Positions 20,958 to 38,621 of a DNA stretch of 64,000 bases are shown one piece after another (within the stretch, counting starts at the first letter, position 1; every line of letters starts with the position of its first letter). The translations under genes were made by a program, and so were the position numbers. Source of the stretch: Gracilimonas sediminicola. Its GTDB lineage: Bacteria > Bacteroidota > Rhodothermia > Balneolales > Balneolaceae. The notes beneath the pieces were generated by a model that saw only the letters and a program-made list of their open reading frames with translations, had not been told where the DNA came from and ran no database searches. The stretch covers positions 124,001 to 188,000 of the forward strand of contig NZ_JANDBC010000001.1 of NCBI RefSeq assembly GCF_024320785.1, read 5' to 3'.

Positions 20958-22085
20958 TTACTTTTCCTGTCTTGGGCCTGCTTTTAGTGTACCGGTTGCG
21001 CCTAATTCTGCATCGGCAAACTCGTGGTCAATCAGGATGTACTTGCCTTCTTCAGGTACAATCATGTCCAAAGTTGCTGAGCCGGAAGCTCCTACAAGTA
21101 CAGTCTGCATTCCGCGCATTTCATTGAATGGGTGACCTTCAAGCCATACTCGGTCAAAGATGCCGCCAATTACGTGGAAGCTGGAGGTTCCGCTTGGTCC
21201 GTTATTGGAGAAGTGGAAACGTACTCGTTCACCGGCATTGGCTTTCAGTGGCTGGTCGTGCATAATGGTTTGGTGTCCGTTAAATACAACGTGGGAAGGC
21301 TGACGATTTGAAGCGCCTTCAAAGTCGTACTGATACAATTCGCCGGGACCTTTTTCCAGGTAGTACTCGGATTGAACCACTACATATTCGCGATCAACTT
21401 CATAATCGGTTGGGTAACCGTCTTTAGGCGAAACTACAACTACACCATGTTGCCCCATTGCGGTGTGCATAAGAACACTTGGAGTTCCGCAGTGATAGAT
21501 GTAAGAACCTGCGTAGTTTGCAATCCAGTCAAATTTAATGGATTCACCCGGCCCTATGGTTCTCCATTTGTCATCTTTAGCTACGGTTCCTGCGTGGAAG
21601 TCCATAGAGTGTGGCATAGGCATGATGGCCGACTTATTTTTTTGATAAGTATTTTCAGCTACCTGTTGCATGAATGGAGAGCCGCCTTTTGAAGGCTCTG
21701 TAATAGTCACTTCTTCATCTGATCGGTTTTTCATGGTGAATGTAATCCGATCTCCTTCCTTAACGTGAAGTACGGGGCCCGGAACCGTTCCGCCAAATGT
21801 CCATGCACGGTATCGTACACCTTCGGCCACTTCGATTTCCTGAACCAGGATATCTATTCTTACCTCATGATGCTTGTTGCCTTCGTAGTCTAAAGGTTTA
21901 AGGTTAGGCAGCAGGGTAACATATTCTCCTACAACGGGAGGTCCGTCATAATCTTCAGTGAATACTTCTGCTTCCGGCATACCGAATGTCATACCATCCA
22001 TTGTATATTCGGCTGTTTGAGCTACTGCCAAACTTGTAAATAATAAACCGAACAACATGGAAAGAGTTAGTTTTGAGAGTCTCAT
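20958..22085 (-). CDS. nirK: Copper-containing nitrite reductase NirK
   Basis: Periplasmic enzyme that reduces nitrite to NO. The 375-residue protein has a signal peptide (ending SLAVAQ) and two cupredoxin domains. Type 2 copper ligands are His164, His198 and His354; catalytic Asp162 and His304 are present. Type 1 ligands are His159, Cys199 and His207. At the axial position, five residues after His207, there is Gln212 instead of the usual Met (HTAMGQHG); Met210 is close by. An AAGA-N8-TCTT box lies 28 bp upstream of the start. It is probably regulated by the Rrf2/NsrR-like protein encoded at 38660-39112. Confidence 0.94.
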   Translation of the reverse strand: MRLSKLTLSMLFGLLFTSLAVAQTAEYTMDGMTFGMPEAEVFTEDYDGPPVVGEYVTLLPNLKPLDYEGNKHHEVRIDILVQEIEVAEGVRYRAWTFGGTVPGPVLHVKEGDRITFTMKNRSDEEVTITEPSKGGSPFMQQVAENTYQKNKSAIMPMPHSMDFHAGTVAKDDKWRTIGPGESIKFDWIANYAGSYIYHCGTPSVLMHTAMGQHGVVVVSPKDGYPTDYEVDREYVVVQSEYYLEKGPGELYQYDFEGASNRQPSHVVFNGHQTIMHDQPLKANAGERVRFHFSNNGPSGTSSFHVIGGIFDRVWLEGHPFNEMRGMQTVLVGASGSATLDMIVPEEGKYILIDHEFADAELGATGTLKAGPRQEK

Positions 22086-34715: not shown

Positions 34716-35102
34716 ATGTCTTATCATTTCAGCAAGAAACTCGAACTCTCTTTTGACGATGCAATTGAGAAAACCACGGCCGTTTTAAAAGAAGAAGGCT
34801 TTGGTGTGCTCACTGAAATCGACATTAAGGAAACACTCAAAAAGAAACTGGACGTAGATTTTCGGAAATACCGGATCTTAGGAGCCTGCAATCCACCCAA
34901 TGCCCATAAAGCGCTACAAGCTGAAGGTCATATCGGATTAATGCTTCCATGCAATGTAATTGTTCAGGAGCATGAAACCGGTGAAGTAGAGGTATCTGCT
35001 GTTGACCCTGTTGCGTCTATGCAGGCTATTGAAAACGCAGAATTAGGTGATGTTGCTAAGGATGTACAGAATATGCTGAAGCGTGTTATCGAGAAGCTTT
35101 AA
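34716..35102 (+). CDS. DUF302 domain protein
   Basis: A 128-residue DUF302 protein. Family marks are EEGFGVLTEIDIKETLKKKL, YRILGACNPPNAHKAL and GLMLPCNVIVQEHETG, with two cysteines (in ACNP and LPCN) that could bind a metal or heme. The biochemical role is unknown, though DUF302 proteins often lie near sulfur and redox genes. It is last in the operon and its stop overlaps the convergent gene by four bases. Confidence 0.88.
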   Translation: MSYHFSKKLELSFDDAIEKTTAVLKEEGFGVLTEIDIKETLKKKLDVDFRKYRILGACNPPNAHKALQAEGHIGLMLPCNVIVQEHETGEVEVSAVDPVASMQAIENAELGDVAKDVQNMLKRVIEKL

Positions 35103-35515
35103 GGCCTATTTTTGTTAAAGCTTATAATTCTTTTCCAATGCAGGCTGATGAATAGTACTACGGCTGAGAACTCAAGCCCTCGTGCAACAAGGTGTATATA
35201 ATCACCCGCCTCGGTTAATTCAGCAAAAACCATTAACCAAATTCCGAGGTTAAAGAGTAAGACCATGAGGTAAGCAAGAAAGCGATTACCTCTCGCTTCA
35301 CCCTTAAGATATCGGGGCAAAATCCAGTAAGCCACTCCCAGTGTAAACTGGATGATCCAGCCAAATATCATCAGCTCGATGTGAACCGGCAGAAGCCCCC
35401 AAATTTCAGGGTCAATATTCATCGCTTTATTGATTAGCATCAGCGCCCCAAGAAAGGCTCCAACTATCAGGCAAACGAGTGAGCTCTTGATAAGCAAGCG
35501 AGATGGGAGTGTCAT
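35099..35515 (-). CDS. Small heme-copper-oxidase-like 4-TM protein (copy 2)
   Basis: Membrane protein of about 138 residues with four TM segments. TM2 carries LPVHIELMIFGWIIQF and then VAYWILPR, similar to the heme-ligand helix of subunit I of heme-copper oxidases, but the protein is only about a quarter of that length. It is a diverged paralogue of the next upstream gene. ATG 35515 lies one base after that gene's stop; a longer frame would overlap it. Possibly binds one or two hemes in a heterodimer with its neighbour. Confidence 0.72.
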   Translation of the reverse strand: MTLPSRLLIKSSLVCLIVGAFLGALMLINKAMNIDPEIWGLLPVHIELMIFGWIIQFTLGVAYWILPRYLKGEARGNRFLAYLMVLLFNLGIWLMVFAELTEAGDYIHLVARGLEFSAVVLFISLHWKRIISFNKNRP

Positions 35516-35516
35516 A

Positions 35517-35951
35517 TCAGCGGGAGCTTTTCTTCTTGCGCCGTTGTGCTTTTGAAAGTACCCGGGGCCAGATTTCAATTACGTAGCAAAGTACAGCCAC
35601 AAATTGGAGAATAGCTGAAATAACGAGCAGAACCTTCCAATGATCTCCTTCAGAGAGAATAATCATCGGTTCAGAGACAAACCGCTGGATCAATCCCAGG
35701 TTCAGAAATCCATAGGTAAGCCACGCCCATTTTTGATTTTGAAAGCTCTCTTCTTTGATCCGGCCCGGAAACATCCACAACGAAACGCCCATAATAATTT
35801 GGGTTATCCACCCCACCATTAACATGTGCCAGAACATGGGAACCACGTTTGGAACCCCAAGGGCATCAACCTGAAGAAGTATCCCAACCAGCAACGCTCC
35901 TAAAAAATAAACCAGCCCGGTTTTTAGAAACAGACGAGTTATTAGTGGCAT
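35517..35951 (-). CDS. Small heme-copper-oxidase-like 4-TM protein (copy 1)
   Basis: Membrane protein of 144 residues with four TM segments (about 8-28, 38-62, 78-95, 108-128). It shares with the following gene a TM2 of the form FWHMLMVGWITQIIMGVSLWMFP, with one conserved His, and ends in a Lys/Arg-rich tail (KAQRRKKKSSR). It lies 15 bp after the 606-residue gene. The pair probably forms a membrane heme complex tied to NO chemistry by context. Confidence 0.72.
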   Translation of the reverse strand: MPLITRLFLKTGLVYFLGALLVGILLQVDALGVPNVVPMFWHMLMVGWITQIIMGVSLWMFPGRIKEESFQNQKWAWLTYGFLNLGLIQRFVSEPMIILSEGDHWKVLLVISAILQFVAVLCYVIEIWPRVLSKAQRRKKKSSR

Positions 35952-35966
35952 AGGGGAATGTTTTTT

Positions 35967-37787
35967 TTAAGCAAGAACTAACGCAGAAGACTGTAAAGAC
36001 TCATAGAGTTCACCTAACCGCTTACTCTGTTCTTCCACTGTCCTGGTAATCGATTCAAGATTCTCATGCTCATAAGCCTGCCCCTTTGAAATCTCAAGGC
36101 AGTATGCCATTCCATCTTCCAGGTTTTTCTTAAAGCGAGTCAGTTTTCTAAGATCGTCAGCGGGGCTTTCGCTCTGGTTGATCAACTCCTCAAAATAATC
36201 CACATACATCACCAATTCTTTAGCAAACATGTGCGGGCGTTCTACCGGCACCAACGAGTCAATTTTGCCATAGATATGAGCAACCATCTCCTGAAGGCTG
36301 TATTGCCGATTAAACCATGCAATGTTCGGGCCGGGACAAATCGCTTGTGGGGCTCGGTTAGGCTTCAAAATTCCCAATGTAATTAAAGCTCCATTTCCCA
36401 GGTGATCACAAAGACAAGCTTTATCCAGCACTTTCTCCCGTTGCTTTGCTTTTAAACCATCAGATACTTCACTCTGATTAATCTGGTCAATCTTCAGCAA
36501 CTGGTATTGAGTTGAGGCCGTGCAAATCGGGTTTTCTGTAAATTCTGTGTTGGATTCTAAAAAACCTTTTGGGCACTGAGAACCGGGTTTACCTTTTTCT
36601 ATTCGCTTTTGATGCCATTTTGCCGAACCCGTATTTTTTACATTGTTGAAAGGAACACCCAGGGGTGAGACTCCCGATAAATACAGGTCCTCTTCTTTGG
36701 CCTGCTGCAGAAGTTGCATAGTTGGTTCGTCTACCGTTGTAGCTTCAGGAACCATCAGAAACGGACTTCCCCATCCGGTGGCATCCATTTCAAAGTCTTG
36801 CAGTAACCGCCGTGCTTCACCGCTGGTACCAATTCCCCCCTGCACGGTAATTCTGGGGTCGTTATCGACCCATTCAGTGCTAAACTCCCGGCCTCGTTCT
36901 TCTTCATAAAACTTATCAATCAACGGCTGAATGGAAGAACTCAACATCTCTTTCTTCTCACGAAATTCTTTGAGTAAGGACGGCAATAAATACCCATCGG
37001 AGGCGAATGCGTGTCCCCCACAGTTCAAGCCAGACTCAACACGATATTCAAATATTTCCAAGCCCTTTTTAGCCAGGTATTTTCCCTGTATCAATGCGGA
37101 CCGAAAATCACTCACTTTCAGAATAATTTTCTTTTTGATTTGTCCTTTTACATCCCGATAGAAGTCTTCGAACTCAGCCAGGTAGTTATATAGACGGGGA
37201 TTGAAACCGGCTGAGAGAATAAGACTGGAGGAAAGTTGGCTGTTTGCATATCCCCGAAGTGCAGCACTGCCATCGCTGTATTCTGCTGTCATCGGCTGGC
37301 CGCTTTTTGGAAAACTAAAGCCATCCACTTTCGACATAATATTTACATCTATTGAGCCCGGCCTCATCTCACCGGTAAGCTCTGATGCGATAAAATCGCG
37401 TGTGGATCCTGAAGCCATTTCTACCAATTTCTGATACTTTTTCTTGAGATCAGAAGAATCGGGGAGCATTTCAAAATACCTGGACTTTTCATTCTTCCGA
37501 AAAAAAGGCTGCTTTTTGATATCCTCAAATTTTTGATTCACAATCTCATGAACCAGATCAAGGTATGCGGTAATACGGCGAGCCCTGCCATCTTCTGCAT
37601 TCCGAGGAATATTCTCATAGGGAAGCTCAAAAAGAGTAGCATAATGCTTTCGGATACGTTCAATCAGCAGATCATCCACTATTGAGATAACTGAATTGAT
37701 GCCATACGGAGCTACTCTGATAGGTGAATCGATTGAATGGCCTGTTCCCATTACAGGAATAGAAAAAGTGTGTAGAGAATTTTGCAT
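35967..37787 (-). CDS. Unknown 606-residue protein, possible flavin TIM-barrel with cysteine cluster
   Basis: Unrecognised cytoplasmic protein of 606 residues next to ric. The centre looks like a TIM-barrel: KKKIILKVSDFRSALIQGK, ESGLNCGGHAFA (about 251-261) and TVQGGIGTSGEARRLL (about 314-329), followed by TGWGSPFLMVPEAT. The glycine motif resembles the FMN phosphate site of nitronate monooxygenase-like enzymes. C-terminal to it are Cys405, Cys422, Cys458, Cys460 and Cys484 (CPKG, ICTAST, ACLCDH, ICPGPN), which could hold an iron-sulfur cluster. The last ~100 residues are helical. No signal or TM segment. The context implies NO or nitro-compound chemistry; this is inference. Confidence 0.72.
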   Translation of the reverse strand: MQNSLHTFSIPVMGTGHSIDSPIRVAPYGINSVISIVDDLLIERIRKHYATLFELPYENIPRNAEDGRARRITAYLDLVHEIVNQKFEDIKKQPFFRKNEKSRYFEMLPDSSDLKKKYQKLVEMASGSTRDFIASELTGEMRPGSIDVNIMSKVDGFSFPKSGQPMTAEYSDGSAALRGYANSQLSSSLILSAGFNPRLYNYLAEFEDFYRDVKGQIKKKIILKVSDFRSALIQGKYLAKKGLEIFEYRVESGLNCGGHAFASDGYLLPSLLKEFREKKEMLSSSIQPLIDKFYEEERGREFSTEWVDNDPRITVQGGIGTSGEARRLLQDFEMDATGWGSPFLMVPEATTVDEPTMQLLQQAKEEDLYLSGVSPLGVPFNNVKNTGSAKWHQKRIEKGKPGSQCPKGFLESNTEFTENPICTASTQYQLLKIDQINQSEVSDGLKAKQREKVLDKACLCDHLGNGALITLGILKPNRAPQAICPGPNIAWFNRQYSLQEMVAHIYGKIDSLVPVERPHMFAKELVMYVDYFEELINQSESPADDLRKLTRFKKNLEDGMAYCLEISKGQAYEHENLESITRTVEEQSKRLGELYESLQSSALVLA

Positions 37788-37880
37788 AGGAATTAATTTA
37801 TTGCTTGTTAGCGGAGGGGTAAAACGATCAACCCCAATCTACAATACACTACATTTGTGAAGAGCGAATGAAGCGGAATG

Positions 37881-37911
37881 AAAAAGGGTGGCTTATAAAC
37901 CAACCACCCTT
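37881..37911 (-). terminator. Terminator after ric
   Basis: On the minus strand AAGGGTGG (37904-37911) pairs with CCACCCTT (37884-37891), then T5. It starts six bases after the ric stop and isolates ric from the 606-residue gene. Confidence 0.82.
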
Positions 37912-37916
37912 ATCTA

Positions 37917-38621
37917 TCAATTTAACCGTTGCTCAAGTTCCAAAGCTTTTGGAAAGAGAATGTTATTCTCCAGATGTACATGCTTGTGTAAATCCTTCTG
38001 GAAGCCTGCCAGGTTCTGGAACAGTACGCGGTATGAAGCGCATGCATTCTCCGGCGGATTAAAACCTTGGGTTAGTTCTTCGATCTTGGCCATTAAATCG
38101 CCGGCCTTATCATGCTCGACTTCCAGGGCTTCAACTATAGCCTCTTTTACCGATCCCTTTTTCTGTTCCTGAACCAGCTCTTTAATCTGGGGAAACAGTT
38201 CCTCTTCTTCTTTTTGAAGATGACCCAGCATTTCACTTCTAAGCAATCGTACATTCTGAAGAATATCAAGTAGTTCCGGATCTCTCTCGCCATGAACCTT
38301 GGCTACTTTTTCAGCATAAAAATCAATTTCCGGCAGCATTTTCCGCACAAAACTATGGTGATTATTAACGATGTAATCCACCAGAAAGTCCAGCGACCAG
38401 TCATTGTAATTATGATTTTCGCCGGTATCTAAATCAAGTGCATTAAGATCGGTTTCAATTTTATTTACATCCAAGCCCTTTTTAGTACAAGCTTTCTCAA
38501 GCGATACTTTTCCGCCACAGCAAAAATCAAGACCATACGATCTGAATACCTGGGCTGCTCTGTAATCTTCGGCAACAATCTGCCCTACTGTTTTCTGTGA
38601 TAGTGTTTCTGAATTAACCAT
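37917..38621 (-). CDS. ric: Iron-sulfur cluster repair di-iron protein RIC (ScdA/YtfE)
   Basis: Di-iron protein that repairs iron-sulfur clusters damaged by NO and peroxide. The N-terminal DUF542 domain holds the paired Cys34-Cys35 in GLDFCCGGKVSLEKAC. The hemerythrin-like domain follows with its His/Glu ligands (VDYIVNNHHSF, VHGERDPE, LQKEEEELFP, VEHDKAGDLM, HKHVHLENNILFP). It has 234 residues. An AAGA-N8-TCTT box ends only five bases before the ATG, so repressor binding would block the leader region. The upstream neighbour is the presumed regulator gene. Confidence 0.94.
   Translation of the reverse strand: MVNSETLSQKTVGQIVAEDYRAAQVFRSYGLDFCCGGKVSLEKACTKKGLDVNKIETDLNALDLDTGENHNYNDWSLDFLVDYIVNNHHSFVRKMLPEIDFYAEKVAKVHGERDPELLDILQNVRLLRSEMLGHLQKEEEELFPQIKELVQEQKKGSVKEAIVEALEVEHDKAGDLMAKIEELTQGFNPPENACASYRVLFQNLAGFQKDLHKHVHLENNILFPKALELEQRLN

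Follow-up and report, generated by a model that had tools for sequence, protein, structure and literature searches.

The gene at positions 35967-37787 of the window, which is the whole 64,000-nucleotide stretch of the Gracilimonas sediminicola contig NZ_JANDBC010000001.1 that was analysed, raises the question of what kind of enzyme is encoded beside ric. A sequence-only reading had described a 606-residue protein with signs of a nitronate-monooxygenase-like flavin barrel and a possible Fe-S cluster, located between ric and two small membrane proteins, and had proposed that it handles NO or nitro compounds. The open reading frame, which begins with ATG and encodes 606 residues, was found at exactly these coordinates, to which we add that it lies on the minus strand. 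GLNCGG (residues 253-258), GGIGTSGEA (residues 317-325) and Cys405, 422, 458, 460 and 484 were all at the residues claimed for them, and the protein has seven cysteines altogether (256, 405, 422, 458, 460, 484 and 563). The flanking genes were also as described, and both small proteins matched the start of COX1 (Table 1). With moderate confidence, we favor the interpretation that the protein is an FMN barrel of the nitronate monooxygenase (NMO) superfamily, that its fold is nearest to those of PfaD, the trans-AT enoyl reductases and FabX, and that it carries a probable [4Fe-4S] cluster.

Table 1. Features of the 606-residue protein gene and its surroundings, listed in the direction of transcription (window positions).
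Feature	Position	Strand	Remarks
ric (ScdA/YtfE, iron-sulfur repair di-iron protein), neighbor	37917..38621	(-)	TIGR03652, 250 bits, E=2e-74
Terminator-like hairpin after ric	37884..37911	(-)	10 pairs, T tail; pattern scan
Leader of the 606-residue protein gene	37788..37883	(-)	Partly conserved among relatives, also in L038, which lacks an adjacent ric
606-residue protein gene	35967..37787	(-)	Example of an uncatalogued family, putative FMN barrel; six invariant cysteines
PVMG	37746..37757	(-)	Residues 11-14; near invariant in 47 homologs
Helical segment, strand 1 to strand 2	37368..37673	(-)	Residues 39-140; AlphaFold pLDDT about 75-92
VNIM	37335..37346	(-)	Residues 148-151; invariant or nearly so
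ESGLNCGGH	37011..37037	(-)	Residues 251-259; Cys256 and His259 invariant
QGGIGT	36825..36842	(-)	Residues 316-321; putative FMN-barrel phosphate-binding loop
GWGSPF	36759..36776	(-)	Residues 338-343; matches the superfamily GS/GT phosphate motif
SPLGVPF	36648..36668	(-)	Residues 374-380; common to CLC-type NMO-like proteins (SPTGFPF)
Cysteine segment, putative Fe-S subdomain	36336..36575	(-)	Residues 405-484; C-x16-C-x35-C-x-C-x23-C; low pLDDT
ICPGPN, putative C-terminal FMN-contact motif	36324..36341	(-)	Residues 483-488; may resemble the PfaD motif
C-terminal helical region	35973..36230	(-)	Residues 520-605; AlphaFold model
Small COX1-like membrane protein	35517..35951	(-)	15 bp downstream of the 606-residue protein gene; possible co-transcribed partner
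Second small COX1-like membrane protein	35099..35578	(-)	Overlaps the 35517..35951 protein

A match to the protein was present in 142 of the 395 sampled genomes of the same phylum (141 substantial matches and one short fragment), and because nearly all of these matches were full length, with 44-97% identity, the open reading frame represents a real gene and not a chance one. The source genome contains a single copy. Elsewhere, the family was found in Balneolaceae, Deltaproteobacteria, Desulfobacterales, Myxococcales and Flavobacteriales MAGs (in which binning errors are possible), and plasmid records and viral contigs yielded no homolog at the sensitivity used. The family tree comprised two main clades; since the taxonomic family of the source organism occurs in both and the Deltaproteobacterial copies are nested inside one of them, the tree suggests horizontal transfer in the history of the family. 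One Myxococcales homolog (L005:1996-4542) has a frame that continues to 848 residues, and its additional C-terminal portion includes a heme-c-type CAGCH motif; this is either a real fusion or an assembly effect.

Cys256, 405, 422, 458, 460 and 484 were invariant in all 47 aligned homologs, whereas Cys563 was absent from the conserved positions. The pattern of NCGGH followed by C..C..CxC..CxGPN was kept in 29 of 29 further loci, which partly come from the same genomes as the other homologs. G257-G258-H259 and Q316-G317-G318 were at least 95% conserved among the 47 homologs; that is, both the GGH histidine and the GG phosphate loop are retained. Searches against Pfam, NCBIfam, PHROGs and PDB sequences gave no assignment for the protein, and no sequence family assigned FMN or an Fe-S cluster to it. 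In particular, PF03060 (nitronate monooxygenase) showed no match at E<=1 to the protein or to the homologs L006 and L003, and TIGR02814 (PfaD; curated cut-off, 449 bits) had no match to the protein even at E 1. A literature search found no publication on the family. Thus roughly one in three of the phylum's sampled genomes carries the gene, yet the searched libraries contain no model for its family.

An AlphaFold model built from a seven-sequence alignment had a mean pLDDT of 66 and contained strands at residues 31-36, 146-150, 188-191, 220-225, 245-251, 312-316 and 368-371, while region 340-500 was poorly resolved. Foldseek gave no significant match for this model (E >= 0.3). In a second structural aligner, for which rows within 1 Z count as tied, the top PDB match was PfaD 4z9r (Z 14.9, rmsd 6.1, 252 residues aligned), followed by a second PfaD, the trans-AT PKS enoyl reductases, including MlnA ER 4z38 (Z 14.0, rmsd 4.8, 250 aligned), and FabX 7e1q (Z 13.7, rmsd 4.1, 255 aligned); FabK, IMPDH and nitronate monooxygenases ranked close below. 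The other model, made for a homolog with 46% identity (pLDDT 58), gave a ranking of the same kind: the first five rows were PfaD and enoyl reductases, the next two were FabX (Z 10.8 to 9.9 over these seven rows), and unrelated barrels began at 9.4. The two models are not fully independent because they share the same seven input sequences. Judging from the models, an FMN-type TIM barrel is very likely, and the flavin-barrel proposal of the sequence-only reading was supported to this extent: both low-confidence models matched the FMN barrels of NMO, FabK, PfaD and FabX, and the conserved motifs map onto FabX positions. Its likeness to nitronate monooxygenases held at the level of the superfamily fold, but the nearest characterized fold relatives were the acyl-ACP enzymes PfaD and FabX.

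Profile comparisons were performed in hhalign with a 47-member family profile, in which the columns of the 606-residue protein served as reference and shuffled profiles served as controls. None of 148 genomes of the phylum contained a PfaD above the TIGR02814 cut-off; therefore, the PfaD sequences, which formed a profile of eight PfaD-type genes, and the CLC-type sequences were taken as DNA from plasmid records. The family scored 36.5 against PfaD, whereas none of 60 shuffles went above 25.9, a result that speaks for relatedness and not for membership. The scores against NMO/FabK (23.4) and IMPDH (20.9) were both inside the shuffle ranges, and the C-terminal profile of PfaD alone gave no signal against the family. 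Given the structural rankings and a PfaD profile score above all shuffles, the barrel probably belongs to the PfaD/FabX branch, yet it is outside TIGR02814 and PF03060 by their cut-offs. The models and the weak profile scores thus support both the fold and its nearest relatives.

The family shares with PfaD (TIGR02814) and the trans-AT PKS enoyl reductases (4z9r, 6lkc, 4z38, 4cw5), which are the best structural matches of both models and the best profile match, the predicted FMN barrel, GGH, GGIGT and a C-terminal GP-containing motif. It differs from PfaD in its extra conserved cysteines and C-terminal part, and no PKS or PUFA context was seen. FabX from H. pylori (7e1q), a dehydrogenase/isomerase of the NMO superfamily with FMN and [4Fe-4S], is the next-ranked fold, and the likeness would extend to the catalytic histidine, the FMN positions and a cysteine subdomain between the barrel and the last FMN contact. 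However, FabX has 363 residues against 606, and its cysteines are spaced x3, x3, x11 instead of x16, x35, x1, x23. Nitronate monooxygenase and FabK (PF03060, TIGR03151) have the superfamily fold and loop motifs in common with the family but are without the cysteine subdomain, while the family is without a Pfam match and its profile score against them lies within the shuffles.

In FabX, FMN is surrounded by G22-G25, N99, E175, G180, H182, G220-G221, Q240-T243 and F339-G341 (PMC8626469). The strongly conserved segments PVMG, VNIM, ESGLNCGGH, QGG (316-318), GWGSPF and ICPGPN follow one another in the same order as the FabX motifs, and our residue mapping rests on this order rather than on an inspected superposition. 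Accordingly mapped, PVMG would be the first-strand FMN loop (G22-G25 in FabX), and VNIM would match N99. ESGLNCGGH was paired with the GGH of PfaD (EADSGGH) by hhalign, and His259 may be the counterpart of the catalytic His182. ICPGPN appears to resemble the PfaD motif I-W-C/A-GPA-x-GAFN, for which the C-terminal profile score was not significant. This mapping would also bring Cys484, within ICPGPN, and Cys256, beside His259, close to the flavin.

From these comparisons, we infer that the N-terminal two thirds would form an FMN barrel with His259 as the catalytic histidine of the GGH motif. The protein would most likely be a two-electron FMN oxidoreductase, in which His259 would accept or donate a proton and FMN a hydride equivalent. 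The most likely substrate class may be an acyl thioester or a similar activated carbon acid; because this assignment draws on the nearest folds only, it is a tentative guess by analogy. The specific form of our interpretation, an acyl-ACP or acyl-CoA dehydrogenase/isomerase or reductase of fatty-acid metabolism analogous to FabX or PfaD, is likewise possible but not probable. PfaD, the trans-AT enoyl reductases and FabX were the top structural matches in both models and PfaD was the best profile match, but no fatty-acid gene recurred beside the homologs. A matched set comprised 80 genomes (40 with and 40 without the gene, matched by family); all co-occurrence p values are raw single-test values, and kinship was handled through the family matching only. 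Gene-bearing genomes in this set lacked a desaturase more often (11/40 versus 3/40, p 0.037), a hint that the protein replaces a fatty-acid desaturase, but the trend was reversed over 267 genomes, where desaturases went with the gene (81/23/72/91, OR 4.5). The source genome itself has two fatty-acid desaturase matches. We therefore rejected replacement of the desaturase, and the protein is not a simple desaturase substitute since the gene goes with desaturases across the larger sample.

Beyond the barrel, the five invariant cysteines at residues 405-484 lie in the interval corresponding to the FabX cluster, whose ligands C300, C304, C308 and C320 come after the barrel, in the place that the NAD(P)H-binding part occupies in FabK (PMC8626469). 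In 2021, this [4Fe-4S] cluster was described as absent from all other NMO family members characterized to date (PMC8626469). The spacing differs, and the FabX motif C-x3-C-x3-C-x11-C was not found in the 606-residue protein, which has C-x16-C-x35-C-x-C-x23-C. A comparable pattern was present in CLC-type proteins from Streptomyces, Deinococcus and Nonomuraea (L157-L159), which contain SPTxFPF and then C-x19-C-x22-C-x-C; those from Streptomyces and Deinococcus are annotated as nitronate monooxygenase, and the Nonomuraea protein is unannotated. In an unguided hhalign alignment, C405, C422, C458 and C460 were paired with the four cysteines invariant in the CLC-type proteins, and SPxGxPF was also paired, which is suggestive of a correspondence. 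The score of 33.0 was marginal against a shuffle maximum of 32.5, and when only the C-terminal part was compared, 5 of 80 shuffles reached a score as high. Moreover, the CLC-type proteins match Pfam NMO, whereas the family does not, and they are without an equivalent of Cys484. No solved structure covering their cysteine part was found.

We consider an Fe-S cluster in the 606-residue protein probable. The earlier suggestion of one gained from the six invariant cysteines, five of them where FabX holds [4Fe-4S], but it is unproven because the cysteine region was low-confidence in both models. The alternative that the cysteines bind zinc or form redox disulfides is unlikely: invariant cysteines do not specify a metal, and CxC with distant cysteines is a non-standard [4Fe-4S] motif, but the structural neighbor FabX has [4Fe-4S] at the same fold site (PMC8626469). 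In the preferred Fe-S reading, the five-cysteine subdomain, which would follow the barrel and precede the C-terminal FMN-contact motif, would probably bind one [4Fe-4S] cluster at the site taken by the cluster in FabX and by the NAD(P)H-binding part in FabK, and this cluster would pass single electrons to or from a carrier protein in place of NAD(P)H. If this is true, a differently built cysteine subdomain at the same fold site would suggest that Fe-S enzymes of the NMO superfamily are widespread and misannotated; the subdomain is partly common to proteins labeled nitronate monooxygenase.

The NO or nitro-compound role proposed by the sequence-only reading would make the protein an enzyme that reduces or oxidizes NO, nitronates or nitro compounds in nitrosative-stress defense; association with ric in other genomes and co-occurrence with ric and nirK had been named as checks. 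Co-occurrence was indeed found but was modest. Over 395 genomes, 98 had both ric and the gene, 43 the gene only, 57 ric only and 197 neither (OR 7.9); in the matched set, ric was present in 32/40 versus 20/40 genomes (OR 4, p 0.009) and nirK in 14/40 versus 4/40 (OR 4.8, p 0.014). For nosZ, the corresponding counts over 395 genomes were 67, 74, 61 and 193, but the association was gone in the matched set (p 0.36), and 37 gene-bearing genomes lacked ric as well as nosZ. The anaerobic ribonucleotide reductase marker NrdD was rare and showed no significant difference (5/40 versus 1/40), and NnrS was too rare for comparison.

Adjacency to ric was, among the matches listed, limited to close relatives. 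The order ric, 606-residue protein gene and small COX1-like proteins recurred in close relatives of the source; ric lay within 2.5 kb of the gene in at least 16 of the 141 carriers, a number that rose to at least 22 for a distance of 12 kb, and all cases below 2.5 kb belonged to the taxonomic family of the source, among the matches listed (best 150 ric positions). Association with ric in other genomes thus stood as co-occurrence, whereas adjacency, among the matches listed, did not extend beyond these relatives. Because a terminator-like hairpin follows ric (the pattern scan found 6 hairpins in the region versus 4.2 expected), the gene is probably the first of a transcription unit separate from ric. 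A general operon with ric was rejected because the neighborhoods differ in most loci and this hairpin lies between the two genes. Elsewhere the neighbors vary and include phosphoglycerate kinase, NadA/NadB, heme A synthase, tryptophanase-like lyases, MauG and DNA gyrase, among others; ric, Rrf2, DUF302, nos, NadA and tryptophanase-like genes were each seen again at a small number of distant loci. Upstream of the 47 homologs, there was no enrichment of an FNR, CRP or NsrR box or of a palindrome.

An NO or nitro role could draw on the ric neighbor in relatives of the source, on the ric and nirK statistics, on the ric, Rrf2 regulator, DUF302, nos and MauG genes near some distant homologs, and on a barrel superfamily that includes nitronate monooxygenases. 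Against it are the confined adjacency with an intervening hairpin, the vanished nosZ link, the carriers without ric and nosZ, the absence of enriched FNR- or NsrR-type boxes and the acyl-ACP enzymes as nearest fold relatives. As the proposal leaned on a ric neighborhood found mainly in close relatives, with ric apparently a separate transcription unit, and as modest co-occurrence is what now speaks for it, we rate this role as improbable. Less probable still is a chance neighbor of ric, namely a housekeeping oxidoreductase that serves tryptophan or NAD metabolism. Tryptophanase-like lyases, NadA/NadB and a tryptophan 2,3-dioxygenase-like gene do recur near some homologs, but each was limited to a few of the 47 loci, and none kept a consistently shared direction.

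The modest co-occurrence with ric and nirK makes a denitrifying or facultative setting plausible for our preferred FMN-barrel enzyme, and an anaerobic one is plausible as well; many carriers are Bacteroidota with facultative or nitrogen-oxide-using lifestyles. The protein is a candidate electron-carrier-linked flavoenzyme of facultative and denitrifying Bacteroidota. The fuller proposal of a new FMN/[4Fe-4S] family with a cluster motif unlike that of FabX, which would couple a carrier protein to a new substrate when much of the Bacteroidota respires at low oxygen or on nitrogen oxides, is rather doubtful.

Several minor observations concern the surrounding genes. The overlapping membrane proteins at 35099-35951 (144 and 159 residues) match the first third of COX1 only, cluster together and are co-directional with the 606-residue protein gene. 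Tryptophanase-like lyases were found near homologs in L040, L044, L005 and L047, and NadA in L006, L050, L054 and L064, with NadB too in three of these; in L006, a tryptophan dioxygenase-like gene lies 11 bp upstream. A family of 405-434 residues (L002:9883-11151, L037:11282-12499, L040:16733-18037 and L059:10922-12166) had no Pfam or NCBIfam match apart from one sub-cutoff hit (E 0.3), and its member is directly downstream of the homolog in L002 and L037. The window also contains a DUF302 gene at 34716-35102 (+), and in unrelated families (L046, L055, L056 and L058) DUF302 genes again lay no more than 10 kb from the homologs. Finally, the multicopper oxidase at 20958-22085 (-) is NirK-like, with 189 bits against TIGR02376 (cut-off, 296), and may be a divergent copper nitrite reductase or a relative.
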